Program-made: the position numbers and the translations under genes | Notes under the pieces: model-generated | The model's input: only the letters and a program-made list of their open reading frames with translations | Told to the model about the DNA's origin: nothing | The model's database searches: none | Shown: positions 26,281-53,690 of the stretch, one piece after another | How positions within the stretch are numbered: position 1 is the stretch's first letter | Layout of the letters: every line of letters starts with the position of its first letter | Assembly (NCBI GenBank): GCA_018241325.1 | Contig: JAFEEB010000019.1 | Location: forward strand, 1-60,160 | DNA from: Pseudomonadota bacterium | GTDB lineage: Bacteria; Pseudomonadota; Gammaproteobacteria; Burkholderiales; Burkholderiaceae_C | Direction: 5' to 3' | DNA length: 60,160 nt

Positions 26281-27519
26281 ATGAGCATCGAAATGATTGA
26301 AACCGAGGCGTTCAACTCGGGCACCCAGATCAAGGTGATCGGCGTGGGAGGGGGTGGCGGCAACGCGGTGGACCACATGGTCGAGCGCCGTGTGCAGGGC
26401 GTCGAGTTCATCTGCGCCAACACCGATGCTCAGGCGCTCTCGCGCGTGCTGGCGCAATCGGTCATCCAGCTGGGCGGCTCGGGCCTTGGCGCCGGCAGCA
26501 AGCCCGACAAGGGGCGCGAGGCCGCCGAGGCGGCGGCCGACGAGATCCGGCAGGCCATCCGCGGCGCGCACATGCTGTTCATCACCGCGGGCATGGGTGG
26601 CGGCACCGGCACCGGCGCCGCCCCGGTGATCGCGCGCATCGCCAAGGACATGGGCATTCTCACCGTGGGCGTGGTCACCAAGCCCTTCGACTGGGAAGGG
26701 GGCCGGCGCATGACCAATGCCGAGACCGGCCTGGCCGAGCTGGAGGCCAACGTCGATTCGCTGATCGTCGTGCTGAACGAGAAGCTGCTCGAGGTGCTGG
26801 GTGACGACATCACCCAGGACGAGGCGTTTGCCCACGCCAACGACGTGCTCAAGAACGCCGTGGGCGGGATCGCCGAGATCATCAACGACTACGGCCACGT
26901 CAACGTGGACTTCGAGGACGTGCGCACCGTGATGGGCGAGCCCGGCAAGGCCATGATGGGCACGGCCACCGCCAGCGGCCCCGACCGCGCGCGCATCGCC
27001 GCCGAACAGGCCGTCGCCTGCCCGCTGCTGGAGGGCATCGACCTGTCGGGTGCCAAGGGCGTGCTGGTGCTGATCACCGCGGCCAAGGGCAGCTTCAAGC
27101 TGAGCGAGTCGAAGGCGGCCATGGAAACCATCCGCGCCTACGCGTCGGACCAGGCCCATGTCGTCTATGGCGCCGCCTACGACGATGCGCTGGGCGACGA
27201 GCTGCGCGTCACCGTGGTCGCCACCGGCCTGTCGCGCCAGGGCGCTGGGCGCCGCCAGCCCATCACCGTGGTGCAGGGCGGTCTGCGCACCGGCACCGAC
27301 AACCAGTTCTACGCCCAGGCTTCGGCCGACGGTTCGTCGCTGGGCGCCAGCCGCCCGGCCATGGGCCAGGCCAGCTACGACCCGGCCATCGTGCCCAAGG
27401 TGTGGACCTCGCCGCGCAATATCGACCGCACGCACGCGGCCGCGCGCGTCGATGCGCTGTCCTCGGGCGGCATGGACGACTTCGAGATCCCGGCCTTCCT
27501 GCGCAAGCAGGCGGATTGA
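26281..27519 (+). CDS. ftsZ: Cell division protein FtsZ
   Basis: Tubulin-like GTPase (412 residues) that polymerises into the Z-ring. GTP-binding signature GGGTGTG (106-112), GVGGGGGNAV near the N-terminus, and the T7 catalytic loop with Asn208, Asp210 and Asp213 (NVDFED). A linker of about 60 residues leads to the conserved C-terminal peptide DDFEIPAFLRKQAD, which binds FtsA and other partners. The start has AGGAG seven bases upstream. Its TGA is also the first three bases of an R2 element. Confidence 0.97.
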   Translation: MSIEMIETEAFNSGTQIKVIGVGGGGGNAVDHMVERRVQGVEFICANTDAQALSRVLAQSVIQLGGSGLGAGSKPDKGREAAEAAADEIRQAIRGAHMLFITAGMGGGTGTGAAPVIARIAKDMGILTVGVVTKPFDWEGGRRMTNAETGLAELEANVDSLIVVLNEKLLEVLGDDITQDEAFAHANDVLKNAVGGIAEIINDYGHVNVDFEDVRTVMGEPGKAMMGTATASGPDRARIAAEQAVACPLLEGIDLSGAKGVLVLITAAKGSFKLSESKAAMETIRAYASDQAHVVYGAAYDDALGDELRVTVVATGLSRQGAGRRQPITVVQGGLRTGTDNQFYAQASADGSSLGASRPAMGQASYDPAIVPKVWTSPRNIDRTHAAARVDALSSGGMDDFEIPAFLRKQAD

Positions 27520-27690
27520 AGGGATCGCCCCCAGTCTCCACTCGCTGCGCGATGTTGCGCCTTCCCCCTTCCGGGGGCATCACCAGTGGCCGGGGGGACC
27601 CCGGCCACGGTGACCGCTGGCTTGGCCTGCTCCGCGGCCGTTCGGCTCTTTGGGTTTCACGCTCTGGCGGTCGTGTTGCGCCGTGTGCAG
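27517..27690 (+). repeat. R2 structured 3' element, copy A (after ftsZ)
   Basis: Begins with TGAA (the ftsZ stop), then CCCCCAGTCTCCACTCGCTG and CGCGATG. Hairpin 1 is CCCCC-TTCC-GGGGG. Hairpin 2 is a perfect ten-base stem GTGGCCGGGG-GGA-CCCCGGCCAC (27586-27608). Then come GGCTTGGCCTGCTCCGCGGC and a diverged right end. It lies between ftsZ and lpxC. Confidence 0.75.
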
Positions 27691-27725
27691 GCGCGTTGAG
27701 TCCTGCATCTTGATCGTGCAAAAAC

Positions 27726-27731
27726 TAAAAT
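27726..27731 (+). promoter_or_regulatory. Candidate -10 box of lpxC
   Basis: TAAAAT ends only nine bases before the lpxC ATG. If used, transcription would begin within two or three bases of the start codon, and no Shine-Dalgarno sequence is present (GACGCCCCT). No good -35 box is visible at the expected distance. Confidence 0.35.
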
Positions 27732-27740
27732 GACGCCCCT

Positions 27741-28664
27741 ATGCTCGCGCAACGCACCCTCAAGTCCCTGACCCGCGCGGTCGGCGTGGGCCTGCACAGT
27801 GGCGAGCGGGTGGAGCTGACGCTGCGGCCCGCGCCGGTGGACACGGGCATCGTGTTTCGCCGCATCGACCTGCCGCAGCCGGTCGATCTGCCGGTCAACG
27901 CGCTGGCCGTCACCGACACCCGCCTGGCGTCCACGCTGACGCGGGGCGACGTGAAGGTGCGCACCGTGGAGCATCTCATGTCGGCGTGCGCCGGCCTGGG
28001 CCTGGACAACCTGTTCATCGACATCACGGCCGAGGAGGTGCCCATCCTCGACGGGTCGGCCTCGTCCTTCGTGTATCTGCTGCAAAGCGCGGGCATCGAG
28101 GTGCAAGGCGCGCCCAAGAAGTTCCTGCGCGTGCTGCAAGCGGTTGAAGTGCGCGAGGGCGAGGGCGATCAGCTGAAGTGGGCGCGGCTCGATCCGCATC
28201 ACGGCTTCACGCTCAGCTTCGAGATCGATTTTCATCACCCGGCGGTCGATTCCACCGGCCAGCGCGTCGAGTTCGACATGGGCTCGGGGCGCTACAGCCG
28301 CGACATCGCCCGCGCGCGCACCTTTGCCTTCTCGCGCGACGTGGAGATGATGCGCGCCAATGGCCTGGCGCTGGGCGGCGGGCTGGACAACGCGATCGTC
28401 ATGGACGACACCAAGGTGCTCAACGCCGACGGTCTGCGCTACGCCGAGGAATTTGCCAAGCACAAGATGCTGGACGCCATTGGCGACCTGTACTGCGTGG
28501 GTCACCCCATGCTGGCGGCCTACAGCGCGTTTCGCTCCGGACACGCCCTCAACAACCGCCTGTTGCGCGAGCTGCTGGCGCGCACCCAGGCGTGGGAGCT
28601 GGTCAGCTTCGACAACGAGCGCCAGGCCCCGGCCGGCTTCGCCCAGTTGGCGCGGGCCTGGTAA
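27741..28664 (+). CDS. lpxC: UDP-3-O-acyl-N-acetylglucosamine deacetylase LpxC
   Basis: Zinc amidase (307 residues) for the committed step of lipid A synthesis. Zinc ligands are His78 (VEHLMSA), His241 and Asp245 ([10 protein letters not shown]). Glu77 is the likely base and His268 (SGHALNN) the second catalytic His. The Gram-negative dcw cluster commonly ends with this gene. The first codons [20 protein letters not shown] match the family. Confidence 0.96.
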
Positions 28665-28736
28665 GACCTCTGCACCGGCTGCTGGCCGCAGCAGGCCGGC
28701 CGCCCTTCCAACCCGTACCGCTGCCTGCGACCTTCC

Positions 28737-29579
28737 ATGATGCCGCTCGACCTTCCTTCCTTGCACGCGCGCCTGCTCGCCTCGGCGCCGCTGGTTCAGT
28801 GCATCACCAACACCGTGGTGCAGCAGTTCAGCGCCAACGTGCTGCTGGCCGCAGGCGCGGCGCCGGCGATGATCGACCACGAGGCCGACAGCGCGCAGTT
28901 CGCCGGCATCGCCGATGCGCTGCTGATCAACCTGGGAACGGCCAGCAACCACCAGCTGCTGGCCGCGGATGCGGCCATCAGCGTCGCCACCGAAATCGGC
29001 AAGCCCTGGGTGCTGGACCCGGTGAGCGTGGGCGTGGTGGACTTTCGCACCCTCAAAATTCGGCAGGCGGCCGCTGCGCGGCCCACGGTGGTGCGCGGCA
29101 ATGCGTCGGAAGTTGCGGCGCTGGCCGGCGCGGGCGCCGGCGGGCGCGGCGTGGACTCCACCGACGAGGTGGACGCCGTGCTGCCCGCGGTCATCCGCCT
29201 GGCGCAGGCCACGGGCGGTGTCGTCGCGGTGTCGGGCGTGCGCGATGCGGTGGTGGCGGTGCAAGGCGCTCACGTGCAGATCGCGCGCATCGGCGGCGGG
29301 CACGCGCTGATGCCCAGGGTGGTGGGCACGGGTTGCGCGCTGGGGGCGCTGGTGGCGGCGTATCTGGCGGCTGGGCGGGCGCTGGGCGCAGTGCCGCTGG
29401 CGGGCGACTTTGCGGCCACGGTGGCGGCGCACGCGCACTTTGCGATGGCCGCCGGGGTGGCCGGCGCGCGGGCCGCGGGACCCGGCAGCTTTCAGGTGGC
29501 CTTCGTCGATGCCTTGCATGCGCTGAACGCCGGCGATCTGGCGCGCGCCGACGTGCAGCTCGAGACGCGCGCGCTCTGA
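28737..29579 (+). CDS. thiM: Hydroxyethylthiazole kinase ThiM
   Basis: Phosphorylates 4-methyl-5-(2-hydroxyethyl)thiazole for thiamine salvage (280 residues). Family features include PLVQCITNTVVQQFSANVLL at the N-terminus, the LDPVSVGV segment, RGNASE, and the anion-hole VVGTGCALGALVAAY with its catalytic Cys. The ATGATG start leaves two possible first codons. No TPP riboswitch is seen in the 72 bases before it, only a GC-rich stem-loop. Confidence 0.9.
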   Translation: MMPLDLPSLHARLLASAPLVQCITNTVVQQFSANVLLAAGAAPAMIDHEADSAQFAGIADALLINLGTASNHQLLAADAAISVATEIGKPWVLDPVSVGVVDFRTLKIRQAAAARPTVVRGNASEVAALAGAGAGGRGVDSTDEVDAVLPAVIRLAQATGGVVAVSGVRDAVVAVQGAHVQIARIGGGHALMPRVVGTGCALGALVAAYLAAGRALGAVPLAGDFAATVAAHAHFAMAAGVAGARAAGPGSFQVAFVDALHALNAGDLARADVQLETRAL

Positions 29580-29591
29580 CCTGGCCCCACC

Positions 29592-30278
29592 GTGGACGCG
29601 CGCTGGAGCGGGATCGATCCCCGCCTGTACTTCGTCACCGACACGCCCCTGTGCCGGCGCGCGGGGCGCACCGTGGCGCAGACGGCGGCCCTGGCGGTGG
29701 CCGGCGGCGCGGGCATCGTGCAGGTGCGCGACAAGACCCTGGGCGACGCGGACTTTTTGGCGCTGACGCGCCAGGTGCTGGAGGCGGTGGCGTCGGCCAC
29801 GCGCGGCACGGGACGGCGCGTGCCGGTGGTCGTCAACGACCGGGTGGCGGTGGCGCGCGCCCTGCTGGATGACGGCGCGGACGTGCACGTCCATGTCGGG
29901 CAGGGCGATCTGCCCGTGGCCGAGGTGCGGCGCGTGCTGGGGCCGCGCCCCTTGATCGGCTTGTCGGCGGCGACGGCCGGCGAATGCGCCGCGGCGCGCG
30001 CCAGCGGCTGCGTCGATCTGATCGGGCTCTCGCCGGCGTTCGATACCGCCACCAAGCGGGATGCCGGCGCTGGCCTCGGCCTTGAGGGCGTGCGCACGCT
30101 GGCCACCCAGGCCGGACTGCCTTGCGTGGCCATTGGCGGCATCGACGAAACGCGCGCCGCACGGCTGCGGGGCGCGGGCGTGATCGGCATCTGCGTGGTG
30201 TCGGCGATCTGCTCGGCACACGATCCGCAGGCGGGTGCGCGTCAACTCCTGGCGGCGTTCGCCGGGACCGCGGCCTGA
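29592..30278 (+). CDS. thiE: Thiamine phosphate synthase ThiE
   Basis: TIM-barrel enzyme (228 residues) that condenses HMP-PP with thiazole phosphate, the product of ThiM, to thiamine phosphate. Motifs include [32 protein letters not shown] and the phosphate-binding VAIGGID. A GTG start ([17 protein letters not shown]) lies 12 bases after thiM, and the pair forms a salvage operon. Confidence 0.92.
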
Positions 30279-31267
30279 GGCTCGGCGCGGGCGGCGCGCC
30301 GGCACTCGTCGGGGGTCGTTCCGCTCCAGGCGCGAAAGGCGCGGGCAAAGCTCTTGTCGTTGCCAAAGCCCACCTCGCGGGCGATCTGCTTGATGGGGCG
30401 CCGGCTGCGTTGCAGCAACTCGACGGCGCGCGCGTGGCGCTGCGCGTCCTTGAGGGTTTGCAGGCTCAGGCCTTCGGCGGCCAGGTGGCGCTGCAAGCTG
30501 CGCGCCGACAGCGCCAGCGCGGCCGCCAGCGACTCGGTGGTGTGTGCCAGGTCGCCCTGCAACAACTGACGCACGCGCAGGGTCAGCAGGCGATCGCGCC
30601 GGTAGGGCCGCACCATCAGCGGCAGCGCGTGGCGCAGCATCTGGTCGAGCGCGGCGCCGTCGCGGCGCAGCGGCAGCGCCAGGTAGCGGGCGTCGAAGCT
30701 CAGCATGGCCGCCGGCGCGTCAAACACCACCGGACCCGGGAACAGCGCGGCATACACATCGGCGTGCGGCGGCGCGGCAAACGGAAACTCGGCCGCCTGC
30801 AAGGGGATGCGCGAGTCCACCCACCAGCAGGCCAGGCCGTGCACGTTGCGCAAGAGCGAAAGCAGGGCGAATTCGCGCGGCGCTGCCGTGGGCAGTTGGT
30901 CGGTCAACCGCACGCTGGCGCGCTCGCCCCTCACGGTCAGGTGCAGTTGTACGTCGCACGTCAGCAAGCCGTGGTGGCGGCACCAGCGTGTCAGCGCCAC
31001 GCCCAGCGTCGGCGCGCCCTGCGAGGCGCGCGCCAGCATGCCGTAGCTGCCCCAGGGCAGGCGGCGGCCGAACCATCCCGGCGCCTCGTCGTCCAGCTCC
31101 TGCATGGCGGCAAAGCACAGGCGCTCGAACTGCACGGCGCTGACACGCGGGGTCTCTGCGCCATCGCTCGTCCCGACGGGTGGCGCAATGTGTGCCCTGG
31201 CCAAGGCGGCTTCTGCGCTCAGGCCGCGTTGCGCGTAAGCTTGAACGATGGCGTTGACGAATGCCAT
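30242..31267 (-). CDS. AraC-family transcriptional regulator
   Basis: A 341-residue regulator. It has an N-terminal ligand-binding domain of the Arabinose_bd/OruR type (about 1-190) and a C-terminal double helix-turn-helix of the AraC family (about 240-325; [15 protein letters not shown] and [19 protein letters not shown]). The start could also be 31327 or 31360; none has a clear ribosome-binding site, and 31267 gives the usual length. It is divergent from an acyl-CoA synthetase and is likely to control that operon. Its 3' end overlaps the thiE 3' end. Confidence 0.87.
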
Positions 31268-31456
31268 CGGCGTGCCGGTTTTGGCCGGCGTGCCGGGCAC
31301 GGGCCATGGCGGGGATGCGCGGATCATGGGAAATGGCGTGATCTGCACCCATTTTGTCATTTCAAGCACGGCCAGGGCGGCGTAAGCTGCGCCGTTATGC
31401 CGTTGCGGGCGCGCGGACGCGGTCGTGCGCGACATCGGGACATGGAGACAAGCATC

Positions 31457-33175
<1,719 letters not shown>

Positions 33176-33215
33176 GCGCCCGTCAAACAAGCGCAAACAG
33201 CTATTGTTTCAATAG
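33176..33215 (-). repeat. R1 dispersed repeat, copy e
   Basis: Starts immediately after the acyl-CoA synthetase stop. The reverse strand reads CTATTGAAACAATAGCTGTT then TGCGCTTGTTTGACGGGCGC. It contains the perfect six-base inverted repeat CTATTG/CAATAG. Confidence 0.75.
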
Positions 33216-33227
33216 TAAAGGTTCTTC

Positions 33228-34830
<1,603 letters not shown>

Positions 34831-34850
<20 letters not shown>

Positions 34851-34891
34851 AGTGTATGATGTGCATATTGAAGGCGATTGATACACATCAT
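34831..34891 (+). promoter_or_regulatory. vapBC promoter and operator
   Basis: TTGGCG (34831-34836), 18-base spacer, TATGAT (34855-34860) form a good sigma-70 promoter overlapping the 3' end of liuB. An inverted repeat ATGATGTGCAT (34856-34866) / ATACACATCAT (34881-34891) matches at ten of eleven positions. It covers the -10 box and the antitoxin start, as expected for autorepression by the VapBC complex. Confidence 0.65.
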
Positions 34892-35246
34892 GCGCACCAA
34901 CATCGACATTGACGACGAGTTGCTTGCCAAGGCCATGCAGGCGGGGCCCTTCACCACCAAGAAGGACACGGTGGAGGCCGGCTTGCGTCTGCTGGCGCGG
35001 CAAGCGGCTTATCGAGAAATCCTGAAGTGGCGCGGCAAACTGAAGTGGGAAGGCGACGAATCCATCGATTGGACCCAGCCCGACCCGCAGGCCGACCCCG
35101 TTGATGCGCCGGCGTCTGCTGCACTGGAACTGCACGAACCGCGGGCCGACTACCGCGTCACCCGTGCTGGCCCGCAGAAAGCGAGGCTGACCGCGAGCAC
35201 CCCAACCAAACCCAAAGCGGAGACACGCCGCCGTGCTGGTCGTTGA
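34890..35246 (+). CDS. vapB: VapB-type antitoxin with a C-terminal extension
   Basis: The N-terminus MRTNIDIDDELLAKAMQAGP and KKDTVEAGLRLLARQ form the ribbon-helix-helix DNA-binding domain of COG5450-type VapB antitoxins. WRGKLKWEGDES is the segment that usually ends the protein and binds the toxin. Instead of stopping near residue 65-70, the frame continues to 118 residues with a Pro/Ala/Arg-rich tail of no recognisable fold. The tail overlaps the toxin gene by 14 bases. A frameshift or lost stop is possible. Confidence 0.85.
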   Translation: MRTNIDIDDELLAKAMQAGPFTTKKDTVEAGLRLLARQAAYREILKWRGKLKWEGDESIDWTQPDPQADPVDAPASAALELHEPRADYRVTRAGPQKARLTASTPTKPKAETRRRAGR

Positions 35247-35637
35247 CTCCAGCGTCTGGATCGACTACTTCGCAGACCGGCCCGTCGCCGCCTGCGACGA
35301 GTTGGATCGCCTGCTGCAAGATGGACACACACGCCTGGTCGTGCCTGATCTGGTGCTGTATGAAGTGCTTCGCGGCTTTCGCCATGAGCGCGCCATGCGC
35401 CAAGCGCGCCTGCTGCTGCTCACGCTGAGCGTCGAGTCCTGCGGTGGCGAAGACGTGGCCCTGGCCGCCGCCGAGCACTACCGCCACTTGCGCGCGCGCG
35501 GCATCACGGTGCGCAGCAGCATCGACGTGATGATCGCGGCCTTTTGCATCGAGCAGGACTATCTGCTGCTGCACAGCGACCGCGACTACGACGCCATCGC
35601 CGTGCACCGCGGCTTGCGCCTGTGGGGCCACGGATGA
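35233..35637 (+). CDS. vapC: VapC-type PIN-domain ribonuclease toxin
   Basis: A 134-residue PIN-domain endoribonuclease. The acidic active site is visible: Asp5 (VVDSSVWIDYF), Glu44 (LYEVLRG), Asp98 (SSIDVMIAA) and Asp116/Asp118 (HSDRDYD). VapC toxins cleave specific tRNA or rRNA sites when the antitoxin is lost. The GTG start overlaps vapB and the stop overlaps the next gene (ATGATCG), so the module is tightly packed into the liu region. Confidence 0.92.
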   Translation: MLVVDSSVWIDYFADRPVAACDELDRLLQDGHTRLVVPDLVLYEVLRGFRHERAMRQARLLLLTLSVESCGGEDVALAAAEHYRHLRARGITVRSSIDVMIAAFCIEQDYLLLHSDRDYDAIAVHRGLRLWGHG

Positions 35638-36506: not shown

Positions 36507-37018
36507 TGAACCCCATCGCCTACTTCAGCCAACTGGCGCGCTACAACGTCTGGGCCACGGCGCGGCTGCTGGATGCAGTGGCGCCAGTGGGTGAGGACGA
36601 ATACCGGCGCGACGTGGGGCTGTTTTTCAAGAGCATTCACGGCACGCTCAATCACATCATCGTGGGCGAACACCTGATCTGGTTCCCGCGCTTTGCGCAT
36701 GGTGAGTCGCCGCGTGTCGCCCATGCCCTGCAGGTCGAGCCCGATCGGCAGCGGCTCGCAGAGCGGCTCGTGGCCGATGCATCGCGCTGGCCGCCGCTGA
36801 TCGAGCAATGGCCGATCGACCGCTTCTCCGGCACGCTGGATTACGTCACCACCAAGGGTGTTCCCGTGTCGCTGCCCTTTGCGGCCACGCTCGCCCACGT
36901 CTTCAACCACGGCACGCACCACCGAGGGCAGATCACGGCGGCGCTCACGGCCCTGGGCGAGCCCTGCCCGGAGCTCGACCTGGTCTACATGCTGCAAGCA
37001 GAACAAGGCAAACCATGA
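36506..37018 (+). CDS. DinB-family protein
   Basis: A 170-residue four-helix protein of the DinB/YfiT superfamily. The metal triad is His50 (GTLNHIIVGEH), His135 and His139 (HGTHHRGQ). Some relatives are mycothiol- or bacillithiol-dependent transferases; most have no known function. It overlaps the neighbours on both sides by one to four bases. Confidence 0.87.
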   Translation: MNPIAYFSQLARYNVWATARLLDAVAPVGEDEYRRDVGLFFKSIHGTLNHIIVGEHLIWFPRFAHGESPRVAHALQVEPDRQRLAERLVADASRWPPLIEQWPIDRFSGTLDYVTTKGVPVSLPFAATLAHVFNHGTHHRGQITAALTALGEPCPELDLVYMLQAEQGKP

Positions 37019-37803: not shown

Positions 37804-37833
37804 TCGCTGGATTCATGAATCAATTTGGTTCAC

Positions 37834-38801: not shown

Positions 38802-40811
<2,010 letters not shown>

Positions 40812-40814
<3 letters not shown>

Positions 40815-40845
40815 AAACCCCAGTCTCCCACGCCGCGCCATGAGC
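40812..40845 (+). repeat. Truncated R2 element (left end only)
   Basis: From the liuD stop: TGAAAACCCCAGTCTCCCAC, then GCCGCGCCATGAG. It matches the first 30 or so bases of R2 with several changes; the hairpin part is missing. Confidence 0.45.
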
Positions 40846-40880
40846 CACTAACATCAACACCCGAACTTCGATCGCTTGCC

Positions 40881-42325: not shown

Positions 42326-42332
42326 TGCCGAA

Positions 42333-42373: not shown

Positions 42374-42375
42374 CC

Positions 42376-42573
42376 ATGGCCGATTTCGATCCAGAATCGG
42401 GCGATGGACCGGTGCCCTCGCCCTGCATCCAGGTGTGCCGCATCAGCGCCGCCACGGGCTGGTGCGAAGGCTGCCAGCGCCGGCTGGAAGAGATCGGCGC
42501 CTGGAGCCGTCTGAGCGAAGACGACAAACGCAGCGTGTGGCGCCGCATCCACGCCCGCCGCGCGATGAAATGA
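42376..42573 (+). CDS. DUF1289 small Cys-rich protein
   Basis: A 65-residue protein with the DUF1289 pattern C-X3-C-X8-C-X2-C (SPCIQVCRISAATGWCEGC), probably a small metal-binding site, followed by WSRLSEDDKRSVWRRIHAR. The ATG at 42376 is preferred because the in-frame ATG at 42325 would translate an R1 repeat as an N-terminal extension. The TGA stop starts an R2 element. Confidence 0.8.
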   Translation: MADFDPESGDGPVPSPCIQVCRISAATGWCEGCQRRLEEIGAWSRLSEDDKRSVWRRIHARRAMK

Positions 42574-42822
42574 AGCACCCCCAGTCTCCACTCGCTGCGC
42601 GATGTTTCGCCCGGTGCTCGCCGCCAGAGGCGGCGGCCCTTCGGTCTGTCCAGACCTGCGCAGGCAGCTCTGGAGCCGCAGACCTCAGCCCCCTCGACAG
42701 GGCATCGCCCGTGGCCGGGGAGACCCCTGCCACGGCGATCACTGGCTTGGCCTGCTCCGCGGCCATTGGGCTCTTTGCGTTTCATCGGCTGCGGGTGGCG
42801 CGCAGCGCCATGCACAACTGAC
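42571..42822 (+). repeat. R2 structured 3' element, copy B (with internal insert)
   Basis: Starts TGAAGCACCCCCAGTCTCCA at the DUF1289 stop and ends GCGCAGCGCCATG...AACTGAC just before the next start. Hairpin 1 is CCCT-CGAC-AGGG after an extra 75-base GC-rich insert. Hairpin 2 is GTGGCCGGGG-AGA-CCCCTGCCAC with one mismatch. The nonamer ATGAAGCAC flanks it at 42570 and 42823. Confidence 0.75.
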
Positions 42823-43464
42823 ATGAAGCACATCGACTTTTACCTGGACTTCATCTCGCCCTACGCCCATCTGGCGTTCGAGCACTTGCCGCGCGCGCTG
42901 CAAGGCCTGAGCTATGAGGTGACGTATCGGCCCATCCTGTTTGCCGGCCTGCTCAAGCACCACGGCCAGCTGGGGCCGGCCGAGATCGCCCCCAAGCGCG
43001 ACTGGACCTATCGGCACGTGGCCTGGCTGGCCGCGCAGCACGGCATCGATCTGCAATTGCCGGCCGCCCATCCCTTCAACCCCATCGGCCTGCTGCGCCT
43101 GGCCTGGGCCTGTGCGCGCCAGGGGGCGCCCAACCGCTACGCCGTCGAAGCGATCTTCCACCACGTCTGGCACGGCGGGCAGGCGGCCGACGATGCGGCG
43201 CGGCTGGCGGCGTTGACCACCACCCTGGCGCCCGTGCAAGACCCCGCCAGCGACGCCGTCAAGCAGGCCCTGCGCGCCGCCACCGACGAGGCGATGGCCG
43301 CCGGCGTGTTCGGCGTGCCCAGCTTCGGGGTGGACGGGCGCGTGTTCTGGGGCTTCGACGCGCTGCCCCTGCTGCGCGCGCACCTGGCCGGTGGCGCCGA
43401 CGGCGCGGCGCTGGATGCGGCGTGGTCGGCCCCCGACGGCGTGGCCGTGGGCGTGCGGCGCTGA
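42823..43464 (+). CDS. 2-hydroxychromene-2-carboxylate isomerase family protein
   Basis: DsbA-fold, kappa-GST-like protein (213 residues). The catalytic Ser of this family is Ser12 in YLDFISPYAHLA, and GVFGVPSFGVDGRVFWG is the conserved C-terminal motif. The naphthalene-pathway enzyme uses glutathione; chromosomal relatives such as this have unknown substrates. The start lies directly at the right edge of R2 copy B. Confidence 0.85.
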   Translation: MKHIDFYLDFISPYAHLAFEHLPRALQGLSYEVTYRPILFAGLLKHHGQLGPAEIAPKRDWTYRHVAWLAAQHGIDLQLPAAHPFNPIGLLRLAWACARQGAPNRYAVEAIFHHVWHGGQAADDAARLAALTTTLAPVQDPASDAVKQALRAATDEAMAAGVFGVPSFGVDGRVFWGFDALPLLRAHLAGGADGAALDAAWSAPDGVAVGVRR

Positions 43465-43469
43465 CGGCC

Positions 43470-44366: not shown

Positions 44367-44384
44367 CGAACCACTGGCGTGACC

Positions 44385-46202
44385 ATGCCCAACGCCTTCA
44401 ACTTTGCCGCCTCGCCCTTCGACTGCCTGACGCAGCAGCAGCAGCGCCTCGTGCGCGAGCACGTGGACATCGCCTACTTTCGCGCGGGCGAGGTGATCCT
44501 GGACGTGGGTTCGGTACCGCGCCATTTGTTCGTGCTCATCAAGGGGCGCGTCAGCCAGTTCGACGGCGATGAGTGCGTGGCCCGCTATGGTCCCGACGAC
44601 AGTTTCGACGGCCGCGGCCTGGTGGCCGGCAAGTCCAGCAGCCGCTTCGTCGCCGACGAGGAATTGCTGGCCTACGAGCTGGCGCACCAGGCCGTCAACG
44701 ACCTGATTGCCGCCAACGCGGATTTCGGCGCGCTGCTGTTTTCGGACCTGGGCGCCAAGCTGAGCGCCGCCGGCCAGCGGCGCAGCAGCGGCGAGCTGCA
44801 GGCGCTGAACCTGGCGCGCGTGGACGAGGCTTTCGTGCGCGCCGCGCACATCGTCGAATGGGACACCGACATCGTGGCCGTGGTGCAGTTGTTCCAGCGC
44901 GAGCGCACCACCAACGTGCTGGTGCGCGATGCGCGCCGGAGCCCGCCCGCCCTGGGCATGTTCACCACCAACGCCTTGCAGCGCGCCATCCTGTCGGGGC
45001 GAGCGCTCGATCAGATCGCGGTGGGCGAGCTGGCCAACTGGCAGCTCATCAGCGTGCGGCCCTCGGCCCAGGTGGGCGATGCGCTGGCCACCATGGTGCG
45101 CCACCACATCCACCGCGTGGTGGTGCGCGAGGGCGAGGAGGTGCGCGGCGTGCTGGAGGCGCTGGACGTGTTCAGCTTCCTGTCCAACCACTCGATGCTG
45201 ATCGGCCTGCGCATCAACGCCGCCGGCAGCATCGACGAGCTGGCCGAGGCGGCGCGCCAGATCACCGACATGATCGGCCGCCAGTTTCGCGGCGGCACGC
45301 AGGTGATGCTGATCGCCCGCCTGGTGCAGGATTTGAACGCGCGCCTGTTCGAGCGCGCCTGGCAGCTCATCGCCCCGCCCGATCTGGTGGCCGCCAGCTG
45401 CCTGCTGGTGATGGGCAGCGAGGGGCGCGGCGAGCAGCTGCTCAAGACCGACCAGGACAACGCGCTGATCCTGCGCGACGGCTACGCGCCGCCGGCCGAC
45501 CTGGCCGCCATTTGCGAGCGCTTCTCGTCGGCGCTCGAGCGCTTTGGCTACCCGCCCTGCCCGGGCCGCATCATGCTCAGCAACCCGGCCTGGCGCATGC
45601 CGGCGGCCGACTTTGCCCGCACCGTGCGCGAGTGGCTGGTGATGCCCAGCCCCGACAGCCTAATGAATTTGGCGATCTTTCTGGATGCCCACGCCGTGGC
45701 CGGTGACGCCGCGCTGCTGGCAGGCGTGCGCGACGCGCTGTGGTCGCTGGCCACCGACAACGACGTCATGCTGGCGCGCTTTGCCGCCGCGATCGACCTG
45801 TTTGCGGGCAGCGGGCGCTGGTGGCACCGCCTGCTGGGCGAGGGCGCCGAACGGCTCGACTTGAAGAAGGAAGGCATCTTCCCCATCGTGCACGGCGTGC
45901 GCAGCCTGGCGCTGGCGCACCGCGTGGCCGAGACCGCCACCACCGAGCGCCTGACGCGGCTGGTCGAGGCCCAGGCGCTCGACGCCGGCATGGCGCGCGA
46001 CCTGGGCGATGCCCTGCAGTTTCTGATGATGCTCAGGCTCAAGGCCGGGCTGGCCGAGCTGGAGCACGATGACGCGGTCTCGGGCGCCGTGGAGCCGGCC
46101 CGGCTCTCCACGCTGGAGCGCGATCTGCTCAAGGACGCGCTGGAGGTGGTCAAGCGCTTCAAGGCGCTGCTGCGTCAACGCTTTCGGCTGAGCGCCCTAT
46201 GA
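44385..46202 (+). CDS. cNMP-binding/CBS/DUF294 nucleotidyltransferase-like protein
   Basis: Signalling protein of 605 residues. It has an N-terminal cyclic-nucleotide-binding-like domain (about 10-115), paired CBS domains (about 150-270), and a DUF294 nucleotidyltransferase-like domain with GSEGRGEQ (344-351) and TDQDN (355-359), followed by a DUF294_C helical domain. The architecture resembles GlnD-like sensors, but the target is unknown. A GTG two codons upstream is possible. It overlaps the exonuclease gene by four bases and lies near actP, a recurrent combination. Confidence 0.88.
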   Translation: MPNAFNFAASPFDCLTQQQQRLVREHVDIAYFRAGEVILDVGSVPRHLFVLIKGRVSQFDGDECVARYGPDDSFDGRGLVAGKSSSRFVADEELLAYELAHQAVNDLIAANADFGALLFSDLGAKLSAAGQRRSSGELQALNLARVDEAFVRAAHIVEWDTDIVAVVQLFQRERTTNVLVRDARRSPPALGMFTTNALQRAILSGRALDQIAVGELANWQLISVRPSAQVGDALATMVRHHIHRVVVREGEEVRGVLEALDVFSFLSNHSMLIGLRINAAGSIDELAEAARQITDMIGRQFRGGTQVMLIARLVQDLNARLFERAWQLIAPPDLVAASCLLVMGSEGRGEQLLKTDQDNALILRDGYAPPADLAAICERFSSALERFGYPPCPGRIMLSNPAWRMPAADFARTVREWLVMPSPDSLMNLAIFLDAHAVAGDAALLAGVRDALWSLATDNDVMLARFAAAIDLFAGSGRWWHRLLGEGAERLDLKKEGIFPIVHGVRSLALAHRVAETATTERLTRLVEAQALDAGMARDLGDALQFLMMLRLKAGLAELEHDDAVSGAVEPARLSTLERDLLKDALEVVKRFKALLRQRFRLSAL

Positions 46203-46828
46203 GTTGGCTGCGCGCCTTGAAAGCGCGCCGCGCGCGCCAGCGTTTGCAGGGCGGCGAATGGTCCTTTTTGCTGGACGCGCCGCCGCAAGGCGAATGGGTG
46301 GCGCTGGACTGCGAGACCACGGGCCTGAACACGCGCACCGACGAGATCATCGCCATCGGCGCGGTGCGCATCCAGGGCCGGCGCATCCTCACCAGCCAGC
46401 GGCTGGAGCTGCTCATCAAGCCCGACAAGGGCGTCTCGCCCGACAGCATCCGCGTGCACCGCTTGCGCGAGCAGGACGTGGCCGGTGGCCTGCCCGCGCC
46501 CGAGGCGGCGCGCCGCCTGCTGCACTTCATCGGCGCGCGCCCGCTGGTGGGCTACTACCTGGAGTTCGACGTGGCCATGCTCGATCGCCTGGTGCGCCCG
46601 CTGCTGGGCATCGGCCTGCCGCAGCCGCAGATCGAGGTCTCGCGCCTGTACTACGACCACAAGTTTCGCCAGTTGCCGCCCTACAAGCAGCACGACCAGG
46701 CCGACATCGACCTGCGCTTTGCCACCATCATGGCCGACCTGGGCCTGCCCACCCGCGAGGCGCACGACGCGCTGAACGATGCGGTGATGGCGGCGTTGGC
46801 CTTCATTCGCCTGCGCGATATGAAATGA
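46199..46828 (+). CDS. DEDDh 3'-5' exonuclease (DnaQ-like)
   Basis: A 209-residue exonuclease with all DEDDh residues: Asp37 and Glu39 (ALDCETTGL), Asp124 (YLEFDVAML), His189 and Asp194 (HDALNDA). It resembles DnaQ epsilon but is a stand-alone enzyme and probably not the replicative proofreader. It overlaps the DUF294 gene (ATGA). The TGA stop is the beginning of R2 copy C. Confidence 0.9.
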   Translation: MSWLRALKARRARQRLQGGEWSFLLDAPPQGEWVALDCETTGLNTRTDEIIAIGAVRIQGRRILTSQRLELLIKPDKGVSPDSIRVHRLREQDVAGGLPAPEAARRLLHFIGARPLVGYYLEFDVAMLDRLVRPLLGIGLPQPQIEVSRLYYDHKFRQLPPYKQHDQADIDLRFATIMADLGLPTREAHDALNDAVMAALAFIRLRDMK

Positions 46829-47000
46829 ACCACCCCCAGTCTCCACTCGCTGCGCGATGTTCCGCCCACCCCCTTGCAGGGGGCATCGTCACTGGCCGGG
46901 GAAACCCCGGCCACGGCGATCGCTGGCTTGGCCTGCTCCGCGGCCATCGGGCCCTTTGCGCTTCATCGGCTGCGGGTGGCGCGCAGCGCCATGGATAACC
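46826..47000 (+). repeat. R2 structured 3' element, copy C
   Basis: Starts TGAACCACCCCCAGTCTCCA at the exonuclease stop. Hairpin 1 is CCCCC-TTGCA-GGGGG; hairpin 2 is TGGCCGGGG-AAA-CCCCGGCCA. The right end is GCGGGTGGCGCGCAGCGCCA. It is followed after four bases by copy D. Confidence 0.8.
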
Positions 47001-47004
47001 GAGA

Positions 47005-47180
47005 TGAAACACCCCCAGTCTCCACTCGCTGCGCGATGCTTCGCCCATCCCCATGCAGGGGGCATCGCCAGCGGGCAGGCCAAGCCCTCCCACGGCGATC
47101 GCTGATACGGCCGGCTCCGCGGCCTTTTTGGTTTTTGGGTTTCGTACCTCGCGGGTGGCGCACAGCACCGTGGGCAACGG
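47005..47180 (+). repeat. R2 structured 3' element, copy D (tandem to C)
   Basis: Starts TGAAACACCCCCAGTCTCCA, 179 bases after copy C. It is more diverged. Hairpin 2 reads CGGGCAGGC-CAA-GCCCTCCCA, with two base-pair swaps relative to copy C that keep pairing. The 411-base gap between the exonuclease and actP contains only copies C and D and a terminator. Confidence 0.75.
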
Positions 47181-47200
47181 ATCGGGTCGAGCCCAAGAAA

Positions 47201-47223
47201 AAAGGGCCGCAAGGCCCTTTTCT
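47201..47223 (-). terminator. Terminator downstream of actP
   Basis: Eight-base stem AAAGGGCC-GCAA-GGCCCTTT. On the minus strand it is followed by TTTTCTT, 19 bases past the actP stop. The plus-strand side also has T residues, so it may work in both directions. Confidence 0.8.
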
Positions 47224-47239
47224 GTGCTGCACGATGGGT

Positions 47240-48963
<1,724 letters not shown>

Positions 48964-48967
<4 letters not shown>

Positions 48968-49272
48968 TTCGTGGCGTCCTTCAGGATGTCGCGGGTGGCG
49001 GCGTCGAACTCGCGGTTGGCGCGGCGCACGTAGATGCCGGTGATGATGACGGTGAACACGATCACCGCCATGCCGATGGGGATGCCCAGCGTGGTGACGC
49101 CGGCGCCGATGGGGGTGGCCAGCAGCTCCTTGTCGAAGGCGATCAGGCCGATGTAGCCGTAATACACGATCAGCATCAGGATCGTGAGCGTCCAGCCCAG
49201 GCGGTTGCGCGTGGCCTTGAGCTGCTGGTACTTGGGATTGCGGGCAATCCGCTCGACCATGGGGTCTTGCAT
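48964..49272 (-). CDS. DUF485 membrane protein (YjcH-like)
   Basis: A 102-residue protein with two membrane helices (about 28-48 and 62-83) and the DUF485 N-terminus [20 protein letters not shown]. It is the constant partner of ActP, cotranscribed upstream of it, possibly an accessory subunit. AGGAGA lies five bases before the ATG. Confidence 0.92.
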
Positions 49273-49683
49273 GCTTGTCTCCTCGGGCCGCGAAGCCCTC
49301 GATTCGGTTGATTGGCCTTGGGGCCGGCCCGGATTGTTTCTGCGCTGGCTGACACCAGACTAACAAGCGCACAGTCCTGACATGTGGTTGCAAAACGGGC
49401 GCGATCGCTCTCGGGGTGGTTGCGGTACGTCTTGGTTTTGGCCGACGGATGAGACGAGTCTTTCTAGGTAATTTCCCTTGAATGTTGAAACTTTTAGGTA
49501 CAAAACCAAAACATTAGTTTCTAATAGGCACACTCGATGCAGGCCCACTTGTGCACCCGAACTTCGGGCTGACGAGCCCGCCACTTCGTCAGGAAACCGT
49601 CGGACGGTGCCGGCATCGTGCAGTTCAGCGGGTGGCATGCAGCTTCCCGGCCCCATCCACAAGCCGTCGAGGAGACAACGTCC
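49273..49683. promoter_or_regulatory. Divergent regulatory region between DUF485-actP and the MHS transporter
   Basis: A 411-base gap with no gene. The part nearest the transporter (49470-49530) is AT-rich and contains the inverted repeat ATTAG-TTT-CTAAT (49513-49525) and the motif TTTTAGGTACAAAACC. Promoters for both directions must lie here, but I could not assign convincing -35/-10 pairs. Confidence 0.5.
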
Positions 49684-51372
49684 ATGCCAACCACCCTTGC
49701 CGCCAAGGGCGCACCCCCGGTCGCCGCGCGGCCCATGACGCGGGAGGAGCGCAAGGTCATCTTCGCCTCCTCGCTCGGCACCGTGTTCGAGTGGTATGAC
49801 TTCTACCTGTACGGATCGTTGGCAGCGATCATCGCCAAGAAGTTCTTCGCGGGTTTGGAGCCCACCTCGGCTTTCATCTTTGCCTTGCTGGCCTTTGCCG
49901 CGGGCTTCATCGTGCGGCCCTTCGGCGCGCTGGTGTTCGGGCGCCTGGGCGACATGATCGGGCGCAAATACACCTTTCTGATCACCATCGTGATCATGGG
50001 CCTGTCCACGTTCGTCGTCGGGGTGCTGCCCACGTATGCGTCGATCGGCGTGCTGGCGCCCATCGTGCTGATCGTGCTGCGCATGCTGCAAGGCCTGGCG
50101 CTGGGCGGCGAGTATGGCGGCGCTGCCACCTATGTGGCCGAACACGCGCCGAACGGAAAGCGCGGCGCCTACACGGCGTGGATACAGACCACGGCGACGC
50201 TGGGCTTGTTTCTGTCGCTGCTGGTGATCCTGGGCGTGCGCAACCTGATGGGCGAGGAGGCCTTCAACGACTGGGGCTGGCGCATCCCCTTCATCGTGTC
50301 CATCGTTCTGCTGGCCATCTCGGTGTGGATTCGCCTGTCGATGAACGAGTCGCCCGCCTTCCAGAAGATGAAGGCCGAGGGTCGCACCTCCAAGGCGCCG
50401 TTGACCGAGTCCTTCGGCCACTGGAAGAACCTGAAGATCGTGCTCATCGCGCTGTTCGGCCTGATGGCGGGGCAGGCCGTGGTCTGGTACACGGGCCAGT
50501 TCTACTCGCTGTTCTTTCTCACCAATGTGCTCAAGGTGGACGCCACCACGGCCAACATCCTGATCGCGATCGCGCTGCTCATCGGCACGCCGTTTTTCGT
50601 CGTCTTCGGCACGCTGTCGGACCGCGTCGGCCGCAAGCCCATCATCATGGCGGGCTTGTTGCTGGCGGTGCTGACCTACTTCCCGCTGTTCAACGCGCTG
50701 ACCGCCGCCGCCAATCCCGACCTCGCCGTGGCGCAGAAAAACAACGAGGTGACGGTGACAGCCAGCCGGCGCGCGTGCTCATTCGGCGGCAACCCGGTGG
50801 CGCGCGAGATCGACTTTCGCAGCTCCTGCGACATCGCCAAGCGCTTTCTGGCGCAAAGCTCGGTCAGCTACCAGAACGCCGCGGGCCGGGGCCCGGCCAC
50901 CGTCAAGATCGGCGACAAGCTGATCACCGCGCCCGAGGGCCGCGTGGTCAACCACCAGTTCGACGCCGAAAGCGCCGCAGCCATCGCCGCCTTCAAGAAG
51001 GACGTGAGCGCGGCGCTGAAGGAGGCCGGATACCCGGCCCGGGCCGACCCGGCCAAGATGAACAAACCGCTGATGGTCCTGATTCTGGCGGTGCTGGTGA
51101 TTTACGTGACCATGGTCTACGGCCCCATCGCCGCCGCGCTGGTGGAGCTGTTCCCCACCCGCATCCGCTACACATCGATGAGCCTGCCTTACCACATCGG
51201 CAACGGCTGGTTTGGCGGGATGCTGCCCACCATCTCGTTTGCCATGGTGGCCGCCAACGGCAACATGTACTACGGTCTGTGGTATCCGATCGTGATTGCC
51301 GCCGCCACGTTCGTGATCGGCATGCTGTTCTTCCGCGAGTCCAAGGGCGCGGACATTTACGCCGGCCGCTGA
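49684..51372 (+). CDS. MFS transporter, metabolite:H+ symporter (MHS) type
   Basis: Polytopic transporter (562 residues). TVFEWYDFYLYGSLA, the loop motif GRLGDMIGRKYTF and LRMLQGLALGGEYGGAA are the MHS signatures (ProP/ShiA/KgtP group), whose members carry organic acids and osmolytes. An extra soluble segment of about 115 residues (about 343-458) interrupts the C-terminal half; it has two cysteines (RRACSFGG and SSCDIAK). Some Burkholderiales MHS proteins share this. GGAGA precedes the start by ten bases. Confidence 0.88.
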   Translation: MPTTLAAKGAPPVAARPMTREERKVIFASSLGTVFEWYDFYLYGSLAAIIAKKFFAGLEPTSAFIFALLAFAAGFIVRPFGALVFGRLGDMIGRKYTFLITIVIMGLSTFVVGVLPTYASIGVLAPIVLIVLRMLQGLALGGEYGGAATYVAEHAPNGKRGAYTAWIQTTATLGLFLSLLVILGVRNLMGEEAFNDWGWRIPFIVSIVLLAISVWIRLSMNESPAFQKMKAEGRTSKAPLTESFGHWKNLKIVLIALFGLMAGQAVVWYTGQFYSLFFLTNVLKVDATTANILIAIALLIGTPFFVVFGTLSDRVGRKPIIMAGLLLAVLTYFPLFNALTAAANPDLAVAQKNNEVTVTASRRACSFGGNPVAREIDFRSSCDIAKRFLAQSSVSYQNAAGRGPATVKIGDKLITAPEGRVVNHQFDAESAAAIAAFKKDVSAALKEAGYPARADPAKMNKPLMVLILAVLVIYVTMVYGPIAAALVELFPTRIRYTSMSLPYHIGNGWFGGMLPTISFAMVAANGNMYYGLWYPIVIAAATFVIGMLFFRESKGADIYAGR

Positions 51373-51395
51373 CGCGCTCGGGGGCGCTCGCAAAA

Positions 51396-51424
51396 AGGCC
51401 CGCGCCAAGGCGCGGGCCTGTTTC
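51396..51424. terminator. Bidirectional terminator between the transporter and htpG
   Basis: GGCCCGCG-CCAAGG-CGCGGGCC with AAAAA on the left and TGTTT on the right. It serves the plus-strand transporter and the minus-strand htpG, which converge here. Confidence 0.8.
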
Positions 51425-51444
51425 GTGGCCGCGCGCCGTGCCGT

Positions 51445-53412
51445 TCAGATCAGCAGCGCATTCACGCGCCGCACATAGGCCGCGGGGTCGGCCGGCAGGC
51501 CGCCTTCGGCCAGCAGCGCCTGGTCGAACAGGATGTGGGCCAGGTCGTCGAAATGGGGGTTGCCCTCCAGCTTCTTGACCAGCGCGTGCTCGGGGTTGAT
51601 CTCCAGCACCGGCTTGGTGGCGGGCACGGCCTGGCCGGCCTGGCGCATCAGGCGCTCGAACTGCAGGCTCATGCCGGCGTCCTTGACCACCAGGCAAGCG
51701 GGCGAGTCGACCAGGCGCGTGGTCACGCGCACGTCCTCCACGCTGTCCTTGAGCGCTTCCTTCAATTTCTCGACGAGCGGCTTGACGGCCTCGGCCGCTT
51801 GCTCGGCCGCCTGCTTCTCGCCCTCGTCCTGCAGCTCGCCCAGGTCCACCGCGCCCTTGGCCACCGACTGCAGCGGCGTGCCCTCGAACTCGCGCAGGAA
51901 GGACAGCGACCACTCGTCCACGCGGTCGCTCATCAAAAGCACCTCGATGCCCTTCTTGCGGAACACCTCGATCTGCGGGCTGTTGCGGGCCGCGGCCAGG
52001 GTGTCGGCGGTGATGTAGTAGATGGCCTTCTGGCCTTCCTTCATGCGCGCCTTGTAGTCGGCGAGCGTCACGCTCGCGGTGTCCGTCGTCGTGGACGCGT
52101 AGCGCAGCAGTTTGGCGATGCGCTCGCGGTTGGCGGTGTCTTCGCCCAGGCCTTCCTTCAGCACCGCACCGAACTCGCGCCAGAAGGTGGCGTATTTGTC
52201 AGCCGCTTCCTTCTTGTCTTGCACGTCGGTGACTTCGGCGTTATCAGCGGCCGGCGCCGGGGTGTCGGCCGCGGGCGCCTTGGCCAGCTCTTCCAGCAGG
52301 GCCAGCACGCGGCGCGTGTTGCCCTCGCGGATGGCGCGCACGTCGCGGCTTTCCTGCAAGAGCTCGCGGCTGACGTTGAGCGGCAAGTCGGCCGAATCGA
52401 CCACGCCCTTGACGAAGCGCAGGTAGCGCGGCAGCAATTGCTCGGCCTCGTCCATGATGAACACGCGTTTGACGTACAGCTTGATGCCGGCCTTCTTCTC
52501 GCGGTCCCACAAATCCATTGGCGCGTGGCTGGGCACATACAGCAGCTGCGTGTATTCGGTGCTGCCTTCCACGCGGTTGTGCGTCCAGGCCAGGGGCGGC
52601 TGCCAGTCGTGCGCGGTCTGCTCGTAGAACTGGGTGTACTGCTCGTCCGTGATGTCCTTCTTGGGCCGCGTCCACAGCGCGGTGGCCTGGTTCACGGTTT
52701 CCCACTCGCCGGTCTTGACCATCTGGCCGGGCTGGCCTTCTTCCTTGCCTTCTTCCCAGGTCTCGCCCTCCATCTGGATGGGCAGGGCGATGTGGTCGGA
52801 GTATTTGTTGATGAGTTCCTTGATGCGCCAGCCGTCGGCAAACTCCAGCGCGTCGTCGCGCAGGTGCAGGGTGACGCTGGTGCCGCGCTCTTCGCGGGTG
52901 ATGGTCTCGACCTCGAACTCGCCCGCGCCGGTGCTGACCCAGCGCACGCCACCGCTGGCGGGCAGGCCGGCGCGGCGCGATTCGACCGTGATCTCGTCGG
53001 CCACGATGAAGCCCGAGTAAAAGCCCACGCCGAACTGGCCGATCAGTTGCGCGTCCTGCTTCTGGTCGCCCGACAGGCGGCTCATGAACTCGCGCGTGCC
53101 GCTCTTGGCGATAGTGCCCAGGTGCGACACGGCCTCTTCCGCGCTCATGCCGATGCCGGTGTCGGTCACGGTGAGTGTCTTGGCGGCCTTGTCGAAGGCG
53201 ATGCGCACGCGCAGCTCGGGCTGATCGCCATACAGGCTGGCGTCGGCCAGCGCCTCGAAGCGCAGCTTGTCGCAGGCATCCGACGCATTGGAGATCAGCT
53301 CGCGCAGGAAGATTTCCTTGTTGGAGTACAGCGAGTGCGTGACCAGGTGCAGCAGCTGGGCGACTTCGGCCTGGAAGGCGTGTTTGGTGCCGGAGATGGG
53401 CGTGGCGGACAT
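51445..53412 (-). CDS. htpG: Chaperone HtpG (Hsp90)
   Basis: Bacterial Hsp90 (655 residues). The N-terminal GHKL ATPase domain has the motifs [29 protein letters not shown] and [11 protein letters not shown] middle domain ([13 protein letters not shown]) and a C-terminal dimerisation domain follow. An Ala/Pro-rich insert at about 385-400 is unusual. A sigma-32-like promoter lies just upstream. Confidence 0.96.
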
Positions 53413-53445
53413 GGGTGTTTGATGGGGAAGGGTGCAAAAAAACGC

Positions 53446-53473
53446 AGATGGGTTGCGGCGGGCGGATTTCAAG
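53446..53473 (-). promoter_or_regulatory. Sigma-32 (heat-shock) promoter of htpG
   Basis: On the minus strand: CTTGAAA (53473-53467), a 13-base spacer, ACCCATCT (53453-53446). The heat-shock consensus is CTTGAAA-N13/14-CCCCATNT, so only the first base of the -10 box differs. It lies about 35-60 bases before the ATG. Confidence 0.75.
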
Positions 53474-53515
53474 ATGCCTGCTTTGGCGCGCAGCGACTCA
53501 TGGCGCCAACCGAGT

Positions 53516-53690
53516 TGCTCATGACGCCGCGCGCCGCCCGCAACGCATGAAACGCAAAGAGCCAAGGGGCCGCGGAGCAGGCCAAACCAGCGATCGCCGT
53601 GGCCGGGGTCACCCCGGCCAGGGGCGATGCCCCCGGAGGGGGAAGGCGCAACATCGCGCAGCGAGTGGAGACTGGGGGCGAGCCCATTCA
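53516..53690 (-). repeat. R2 structured 3' element, copy E (reverse strand)
   Basis: On the minus strand it starts TGAA at the stop codon of the solute-binding protein gene, then CCCCCAGTCTCCACTCGCTG after eight bases. Hairpin 1 is CCCCC-TCC-GGGGG; hairpin 2 is TGGCCGGGG-TGA-CCCCGGCCA. It lies between that gene and the htpG promoter. Confidence 0.8.

Follow-up and report, generated by a model that had tools for sequence, protein, structure and literature searches.

R2, a structured repeat placed behind stop codons in a Burkholderiaceae genome, is probably a non-autonomous mobile element with conserved ends

R2 is a short structured repeat found behind gene ends in a stretch of 60,160 nucleotides (nt) of DNA (the window; positions 1 to 60,160 of contig JAFEEB010000019.1, assembly GCA_018241325.1) from a member of the Burkholderiaceae_C, and its presumed mode of insertion resembles that of the IS200/IS605 insertion sequences. 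According to the accessible text of the sources, IS608 has TTAC as the target 3' of which it inserts and TCAA as the last bases of its right end (PMC5934647), and IS200/IS605 elements insert 3' of a short fixed left-flank sequence and have fixed bases at the right end (PMC5934647, PMC6006769), a pattern that R2 may share. Subterminal hairpins at both ends are also common to the two (in R2, helices 2 and 6 of the structure described below), and R2 is IS200/IS605-like in having a hairpin about 7-10 nt before the right cut and tandem copies joined as ACTGA|AATG. The insertion pattern, read by eye, fits at three loci (L022, L299 and L069), with TAA or TAG stops and shifted junctions elsewhere. R2 differs in that its target is TGA or another stop codon, and in that the copies read hold no transposase gene and no matching transposase was identified. 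By analogy, then, R2 may work like these elements without being a member of their family.

Other small repeats invite comparison. Repetitive extragenic palindromes (REPs) and bacterial interspersed mosaic elements (BIMEs), with their transposase TnpA-REP (RAYT), are likewise short, structured, abundant and intergenic, some lying 15 nt or less from stops, as far as the accessible part of PMC12306157 goes, and Y1 genes also exist in genomes of the R2 host group. A REP is defined, in the portions of PMC6006769 and PMC8266576 available, as a palindrome of 20-65 nt preceded by GT[AG]G. R2 does not fit this definition, being about 180 nt long, and the GTGG at the foot of its right-end hairpin pairs within the hairpin. 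It differs further in that its ends are fixed and its orientation relative to the gene is nearly so, and the Y1 genes read have GGGGTCAGAT or GTAGGGCGGG-type repeats alongside, not R2 ends. The accessible text of PMC12306157 gives 446 of 4,072 predicted E. coli REPs as lying within 15 nt of a stop and cites earlier work in which REPs closer than 16 nt to a stop lower translation; the share of R2 copies near stops is far higher (63 of 71 within 17 nt). Miniature inverted-repeat transposable elements (MITEs) and the RU-type repeats of enterobacteria are, in what could be consulted of PMC2759123, small, mobile and intergenic and encode no mobility function of their own, in which R2 is like them. 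Unlike them, R2 lacks inverted repeats at its very ends (the only such pair is the 7-bp ATGAAAC/GTTTCAT, and its GTTTCAT half is set back about 37 nt from the right end), shows no target duplication except possibly of TGA, and is inserted in one orientation at stop codons. Finally, direct repeats of the heptamer TAACTGA are described just before start codons in Beggiatoaceae and others (PMC4679880, accessible portion). The R2 right end, GGATAACTGA-N-ATG, also puts TAACTGA just before starts, as a single TAACTGA in a long element rather than tandem heptamers, and the likeness is likely a coincidence. Targeted literature searches, whose coverage left out most subscription journals, returned no description of an element with R2 ends.

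We propose that R2 is probably a mobile, non-autonomous element which enters DNA 3' of TGA and, as it also ends in TGA, rebuilds stop and start signals; it is best explained as this genome's representative of a family of short elements present in its genus and in other genera of its bacterial family. The observations behind this proposal are the absence of the element from a relative's sites, its position and orientation, its two conserved ends, its differing interiors and its internal pairing. A typical element would run from (A/G)ATGAAAC... to ...GTTTCAT, followed by about 10 nt, a hairpin and GGATAACTGA. It would insert directly 3' of a TGA, strongly preferring one that serves as a stop codon, and in the orientation of the gene so ended. 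The TGA that closes the element would then rebuild stop/start junctions (TGATG, TGA-N-ATG), the upstream gene keeping or regaining its stop and the downstream gene keeping its start, and insertion behind the element's own terminal TGA would give head-to-tail tandems. The cut may fall directly after TGA as a general rule; by analogy with IS200/IS605, a trans-acting HuH enzyme might recognise the ends as folded single strands, and the right end might let translation of the next gene restart.

The distribution of R2 in its own genome (G000; 3.82 Mb on 93 contigs) bears on position and orientation. The exact 11-mer CCCCAGTCTCC, the core of the left end, occurs 80 times there (39 forward, 41 reverse; 0 and 0 with letters reversed), and an estimated one or two of these may match by chance. 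In 199 other family genomes it was found 0-9 times per genome, with a reversed control of 0-8; thus the exact 11-mer hardly exceeds background in genomes other than G000, and the version of R2 with CCCCAGTCTCC is expanded in G000. The first 28 bases of R2 are present in three named contigs of metagenome-assembled genomes, labelled Burkholderiales, Pseudomonadota and Desulfovibrionaceae. All 80 copies were extracted and the upstream gene was called with a codon-phase model whose training set was the long open frames found in the window and the loci (margin at least 10). Automatic sorting put 11 copies behind another copy; after two (L044 and L057) were moved by hand to the gene-stop class, 9 of the 80, read by hand, lie directly behind another copy. 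Among the 71 non-tandem copies, 63 have their CCCC 6-17 nt past the stop of a gene on the same strand, which is far from the random strand and position that the initial annotation had named as the contrary outcome. Orientation follows the strand of the upstream gene in 66 of 69 clear calls, and the stop is TGA in 53, TAA in 6 and TAG in 2 of 61 automatically counted copies.

A stop near the left end could be an artefact of insertion, since that end holds TGA in two frames, and gene ends were therefore checked in the closest relative (G203). Fifty-nine upstream gene tails were prepared, 40 of which served for the locus search; all 59 were compared with the G203 loci fetched, and 33 matched, at 73-97% identity. 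Assuming no frame-shifting gaps, the in-frame stop of G203 falls at the same codon in 23 of the 33; it is shifted by one codon in 8 and by 2 or 4 codons in the remaining 2. The element is absent at 29 of the 33 sites (about 47 nt 3' of the stop, read by eye), and a related element stands at the other four (L003, L017, L021 and L053). At the exonuclease, liuD and DUF1289 genes of the window, a by-eye reading has the coding regions end 2, 3 and about 7 codons before those of G203, at TGAs belonging to the element. Of the options initially put forward, insertion at stop codons thus agrees with 31 of 33 G203 stops lying within one codon, the insertion falling at or a few nt around the native stop; supply of the stop by the element holds for a minority (in the window, the three genes just named). 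The comparison supports insertion at native gene ends, probably with small rearrangements of the left junction in some copies.

The same data bear on the possibility that insertion is random and that purifying selection leaves only harmless copies, the stop often coming from TGAs of the element. The two left-end frames with TGA would indeed show a stop after any same-strand insertion within a gene, and the shortened DUF1289, exonuclease and liuD genes are what this predicts; the agreement of the G203 stops (23 of 33 at the same codon, 31 of 33 within one), the 66 of 69 copies on the upstream gene's strand, the occurrence of TAA and TAG stops, and the rare use of non-coding TGAs, about four times as many as stop TGAs in the window, all speak against it. 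We regard random insertion as very doubtful and strongly disfavour it.

The copies of the window itself were listed as follows; the names ftsZ, liuD, DUF1289, exonuclease and solute-binding protein are those of the initial annotation, which was made from sequence only.

27520..27697, + strand: R2 behind ftsZ (ftsZ stop 27517-27519); right end worn, end coordinate approximate
40812..40851, + strand: R2 remnant behind liuD (liuD stop 40812-40814); left-end core, middle missing
42571..42821, + strand: R2 after the DUF1289 gene; the upstream stop is the TGA at 42571, and the next gene's ATG is at 42823
42613..42686, + strand: nested second repeat of 74 nt (GGTGCTCGCCGCC...) in the DUF1289 copy; coordinates approximate
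46829..47002, + strand: R2 copy 1 behind the exonuclease gene (stop 46826-46828); site empty in G203
47003..47181, + strand: R2 copy 2, tandem; head-to-tail joint ...AACCGA|GATGAAACACCCCC, right end worn
53509..53687, - strand: R2 behind the solute-binding-protein gene (stop 53690-53688); low end approximate

The core CCCCAGTCTCC is exact at six sites of the window (27529+, 40818+, 42579+, 46834+, 47013+ and 53677-), which bears out the six occurrences first reported, one truncated and one tandem, and at five of them the stop of a same-strand gene lies upstream as claimed, the sixth being the tandem copy at 47013. The reported length of about 175 bp is close to what we find, most complete copies measuring about 180 bp. 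That every copy begins with TGAA is correct for the window, where TGAA stands a few bases 5' of CCCCAGTCTCC at all six sites, and not for the genome, where TGA occupies the consensus place in 33 of 71 non-tandem copies. The liuD copy, described as truncated, may be what is left of the two ends after loss of the middle; the case for a worn right end is weak, and a chance match would also account for it. At the ftsZ site G203 has the same stop codon, and the element is absent from the 47 nt displayed there; its DUF1289 site is empty and, read by eye, the two flanking genes overlap. The DUF1289 copy ends in ...CACAACTGA, with its last base at 42821, and is 74 nt longer than usual (243 instead of 169 nt) because of the second repeat inside it.

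The initial annotation had missed the right end of R2, which reads ...GCGCCATGGATAACTGA and is usually followed by N-ATG. This second conserved end, CAGCGCCATGGATAACTGA, emerged from an alignment of all copies; its distance from CCCC is 169 nt in 21 of the 33 copies that are complete. Of 31 distinct right ends that carry three mismatches or fewer, 25 are, by eye, followed by N-ATG, two of these 25 being inner joints of tandems; the codon-phase model makes the ATG an in-frame gene start at 18 of 37 own right ends (19 other or unclear) and at 24 of 48 right ends of relatives (24 other or unclear), in a set biased by an end motif that included N-ATG. Copies lie within operons, between ispA and dxs (L076), livG and livF (L048), and mlaC and mlaB (L006), the names being read from the proteins. 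The clearest site is L022, where G203 has ...TGAgATG (two codons further on) and our genome has ...TGA|aatggcacacccc..[two copies]..ggacaacTGA|gATG. Of 14 relatives within the genus in which the end of ispA was readable, 10 join ispA to dxs by TGA-(1-3 nt)-ATG, 3 have a longer junction and 1 has a filled one; at 14 further loci the script did not detect ispA, mostly since it read one strand only. The filled junction belongs to G217, whose element has the same ends and another interior; the same genome has an element 5' of a livF-like gene (L223), and in G222 a right end lies, by coordinates, directly 5' of dxs. In another genus (g23), L299 shows an upstream TGA, the element and then AACTGA|TGCGCATC, the ATG of a gene read as ruvC being rebuilt from the element's last A. 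Two further copies lie behind TGAs, one (L300) 13 nt past the gene stop and one (L298) with the upstream gene on the opposite strand. Right flanks in this genus (genome G023) include AATC, ATTG, TATA, AAAG, TGCG and GCAG; therefore N-ATG is favoured and not needed.

The symmetry of the two borders raises the possibility that a recombinase (tyrosine, serine or IS110-like) joins a circle junction ACTGA|AATG to a genomic TGA|NATG, with the same core at both ends. The left TGA-A-ATG and right TGA-N-ATG, with N-ATG after 25 of 31 right ends, are what such a reaction would leave; several right flanks of genus g23 are not N-ATG, and the IS110 profile PF02371 had no match in the three genomes searched (G000, G082 and G003), other recombinase families lying outside that search. 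We hold a circle intermediate to be decidedly unlikely. A seven-base target duplication (TGANATG) was rejected, since the variable base differs between left and right in most copies compared by eye.

The two ends also define a wider family whose interiors differ. With at most three mismatches the right end occurs in 43, 42 and 59 copies in G000, G217 and G222, which are three species of the genus, and 0-6 times in each of the other 26 genomes of the genus, with one match overall for the reversed control; across the family the right-end motif was found in 102 of 299 genomes and 67 of 141 genera, with a few control matches. Eight units from seven genomes and five genera (two from G000 and one each from G217, G222, G023, G082, G003 and G252) start with TGA + (A/G)(A/G)TG(A/G)A.. 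and end, in most, with ..TTTCAT..GCGCCATGGA..ACTGA, the R2 unit L020 being shifted by one base. Compared with L020, their last 38 nt have 53-82% gapless identity, and their interiors show only matches of 7-23 nt (E 0.02 or worse for two sequences). The interiors of G217, G222 and L203 look unrelated to that of L020; the G023, G003, G252 and G082 units have in common with it a C-rich start and a loosely similar layout. The interior thus appears exchangeable, which suggests that only the ends are needed. L203, in G000 (C49:18362), has R2 ends around a long inverted repeat (GGACAGCCGAACGCAGAGGACGC...) unrelated to R2. In three relatives' loci (L225, L236 and L241) a similar right end lies between apparent accB and accC genes.

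Several findings weigh against insertion 3' of TGA as a simple rule. In the R2 genome, 3 of the 71 non-tandem copies follow a same-strand gene whose stop is elsewhere (L005, L009 and L056), 3 stand behind an opposite-strand gene (L026, L062 and L072) and 2 have no clear gene call (L019 and L049). TGA is not obligatory, TAA or TAG standing 5' of 8 of 61 copies, and the left junction has no fixed base: 25 of the 61 stops lie at -13, 14 at -8 and 22 at other positions. At 7 matched sites G203 has TAA or TAG where our genome has TGA, at 4 it has TGA where ours has TAA, and genes are shortened at some left junctions. Among 51 left ends of relatives, 41 begin with TGA, in a search whose pattern favoured TGA; the codon-phase model assigns the gene stop to that TGA in 16 cases and to the following TGA in 4, with 19 unclear and 12 elsewhere or on the other strand. 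Nor does TGA alone account for site choice. On both strands of the window there are 42 stop TGAs and 163 other non-coding TGAs (about 1:4), a rough null that includes TGAs inside R2 copies and for which the gene caller errs at least once, missing the solute-binding-protein gene; against the resulting 20% expectation, 63 of 71 gives p ~7e-35, and non-stop TGAs are used far below their number. Finally, searches of the copies and with the Y1 and IS110 profiles gave no enzyme and no autonomous copy.

The preference for stops could reflect a target longer than TGA, purging of other sites, or the context of the stop. C stands 5' of TGA in 4 of 24 own copies and at 16 of 42 window stops, which gives no sign of a preference for it, though among the listed left ends of relatives the base is mostly C. 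A further reading is that the stop codon itself, and not the letters TGA alone, guides insertion, the element moving by way of a transcript or of DNA laid bare at the point where translation stops, and that the ends of the element, stop-like on the right and start-like on the left, have evolved as a plug for operons. Since stop TGAs are used far above others, TAA and TAG are used, and orientation follows the gene in 66 of 69, such guidance can be argued for, although we think it quite improbable. If true, the plug would turn one stop/start junction into two and operons would stay readable. In one of the exceptions, L005, the upstream gene would, in its model-called frame, pass both TGAs and end at a TAA within the R2 right end.

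Internal pairing was analysed on 33 of the 80 copies (right end found, 155-172 nt, no N). The 45-pair, six-helix structure was named by us from the consensus and is partly favoured for that reason; 92.2% of its cells are paired and 13 of 45 pairs are changed on both sides, in 33 cells. None of 500 shuffles reached these figures, 31 of 500 reached the count of further pair types, and sliding the partners lowers pairing to 35-47%. The closing stem is the weakest helix (81.1% paired). Helix 2 is paired in 99.2% of cells, yet 3 of its 4 pairs are invariant; helix 6 is 90.8% paired, with 2 of 7 pairs changed on both sides. ATGAAAC/GTTTCAT pairs 7 of 7 in seven of the eight units (G-U counted), and G082 has a swap from C-G to G-C. 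Compensatory changes therefore support the structure. A single copy folded with z -2.7; RNAalifold, run on the 33-copy alignment, returned 25 pairs and a different long-range stem with little covariation (-0.57 kcal/mol), a poorer result than that of the named helices. Rfam 15 gave 0 matches at gathering score in the window. A protein-coding element was considered because the consensus holds a 57-codon frame from ATG to TAA, and rejected because that frame is full length in only 10 of 33 complete copies, whose lengths vary by single bases (169 in 21, 168 in 6, 167 in 4, 157 in 1 and 170 in 1).

A folded element close behind stops could instead be a functional RNA module of the 3' end or intercistronic space (a terminator, a barrier to RNases, a ribosome-stall or a reinitiation signal), its position selected by the host and its spread secondary. 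The compensatory changes and the z of -2.7 agree with this, as does the placement, REPs within 15 nt of a stop being reported to stall ribosomes in E. coli (PMC12306157, accessible text), and 18 of the 37 own right ends scored adjoin a gene start. Absence of the element at 29 of 33 matched G203 sites, interiors that vary between species while the ends are kept, the unrelated kinds of the neighbouring proteins read and the existence of tandem copies argue the other way, and we consider such a module unlikely. The 3' UTR module offered in the initial annotation also takes no account of right ends that often touch the following gene's start codon, or of similar ends around other interiors in relatives. 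If R2 is instead the mobile element proposed above, it would land in dense genomes by means of a stop-codon site and a spare copy of it at the other end, leaving both neighbour genes intact and gene clusters unbroken. This would explain many structured intergenic repeats of its bacterial family, would add the stop codon to the known targets of mobile elements, and would make the effect of between-cistron insertions on coupled translation directly testable.

Such an element would presumably depend on an enzyme acting in trans. No gene lies in any own R2 copy read, and none of the nine right ends read in G000 outside the 80 copies belongs to an autonomous copy; they are short elements close to R2, except for one with a different interior (L203) and one doubtful match (L288). 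The Y1 profile PF01797 has matches in 21 of 29 genomes of the genus and in 9 of 10 right-end-rich family genomes, mostly one gene per genome, and most of those read adjoin an apparent gltB, with other repeats. The R2 end motif is absent from the ten Y1 loci scanned, and Y1 loci whose flanks were read by eye lie away from R2 ends. PF01797 occurs in 12 of the 13 genomes of the genus that have a right-end match and in 9 of the 16 that lack one (p 0.04, one-sided), a weak association. A Y1 transposase is a weak candidate for the partner, the genes read having another repeat alongside. At L275 (G000 C39) and similar loci of relatives, the Y1-like gene adjoining apparent gltB has GGGGTCAGAT repeats on both sides. 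G015 has twenty PF01797 matches, some of them fragments, and only two R2 right ends.

R2 itself seems to receive other repeats. The 74-nt repeat of the DUF1289 copy (GGTGCTCGCCGCC...CAGACCTCAG, window 42613-42686) is found in 11 other own copies as well, and in the copies read it lies between hairpins 1 and 2 of R2 at about the same place, as if R2 were a target. Within the R2 copy at L006 there is a further repeat (CCCCCACGCTCCCCCGCTGCGCG...) with an R2-like general layout.

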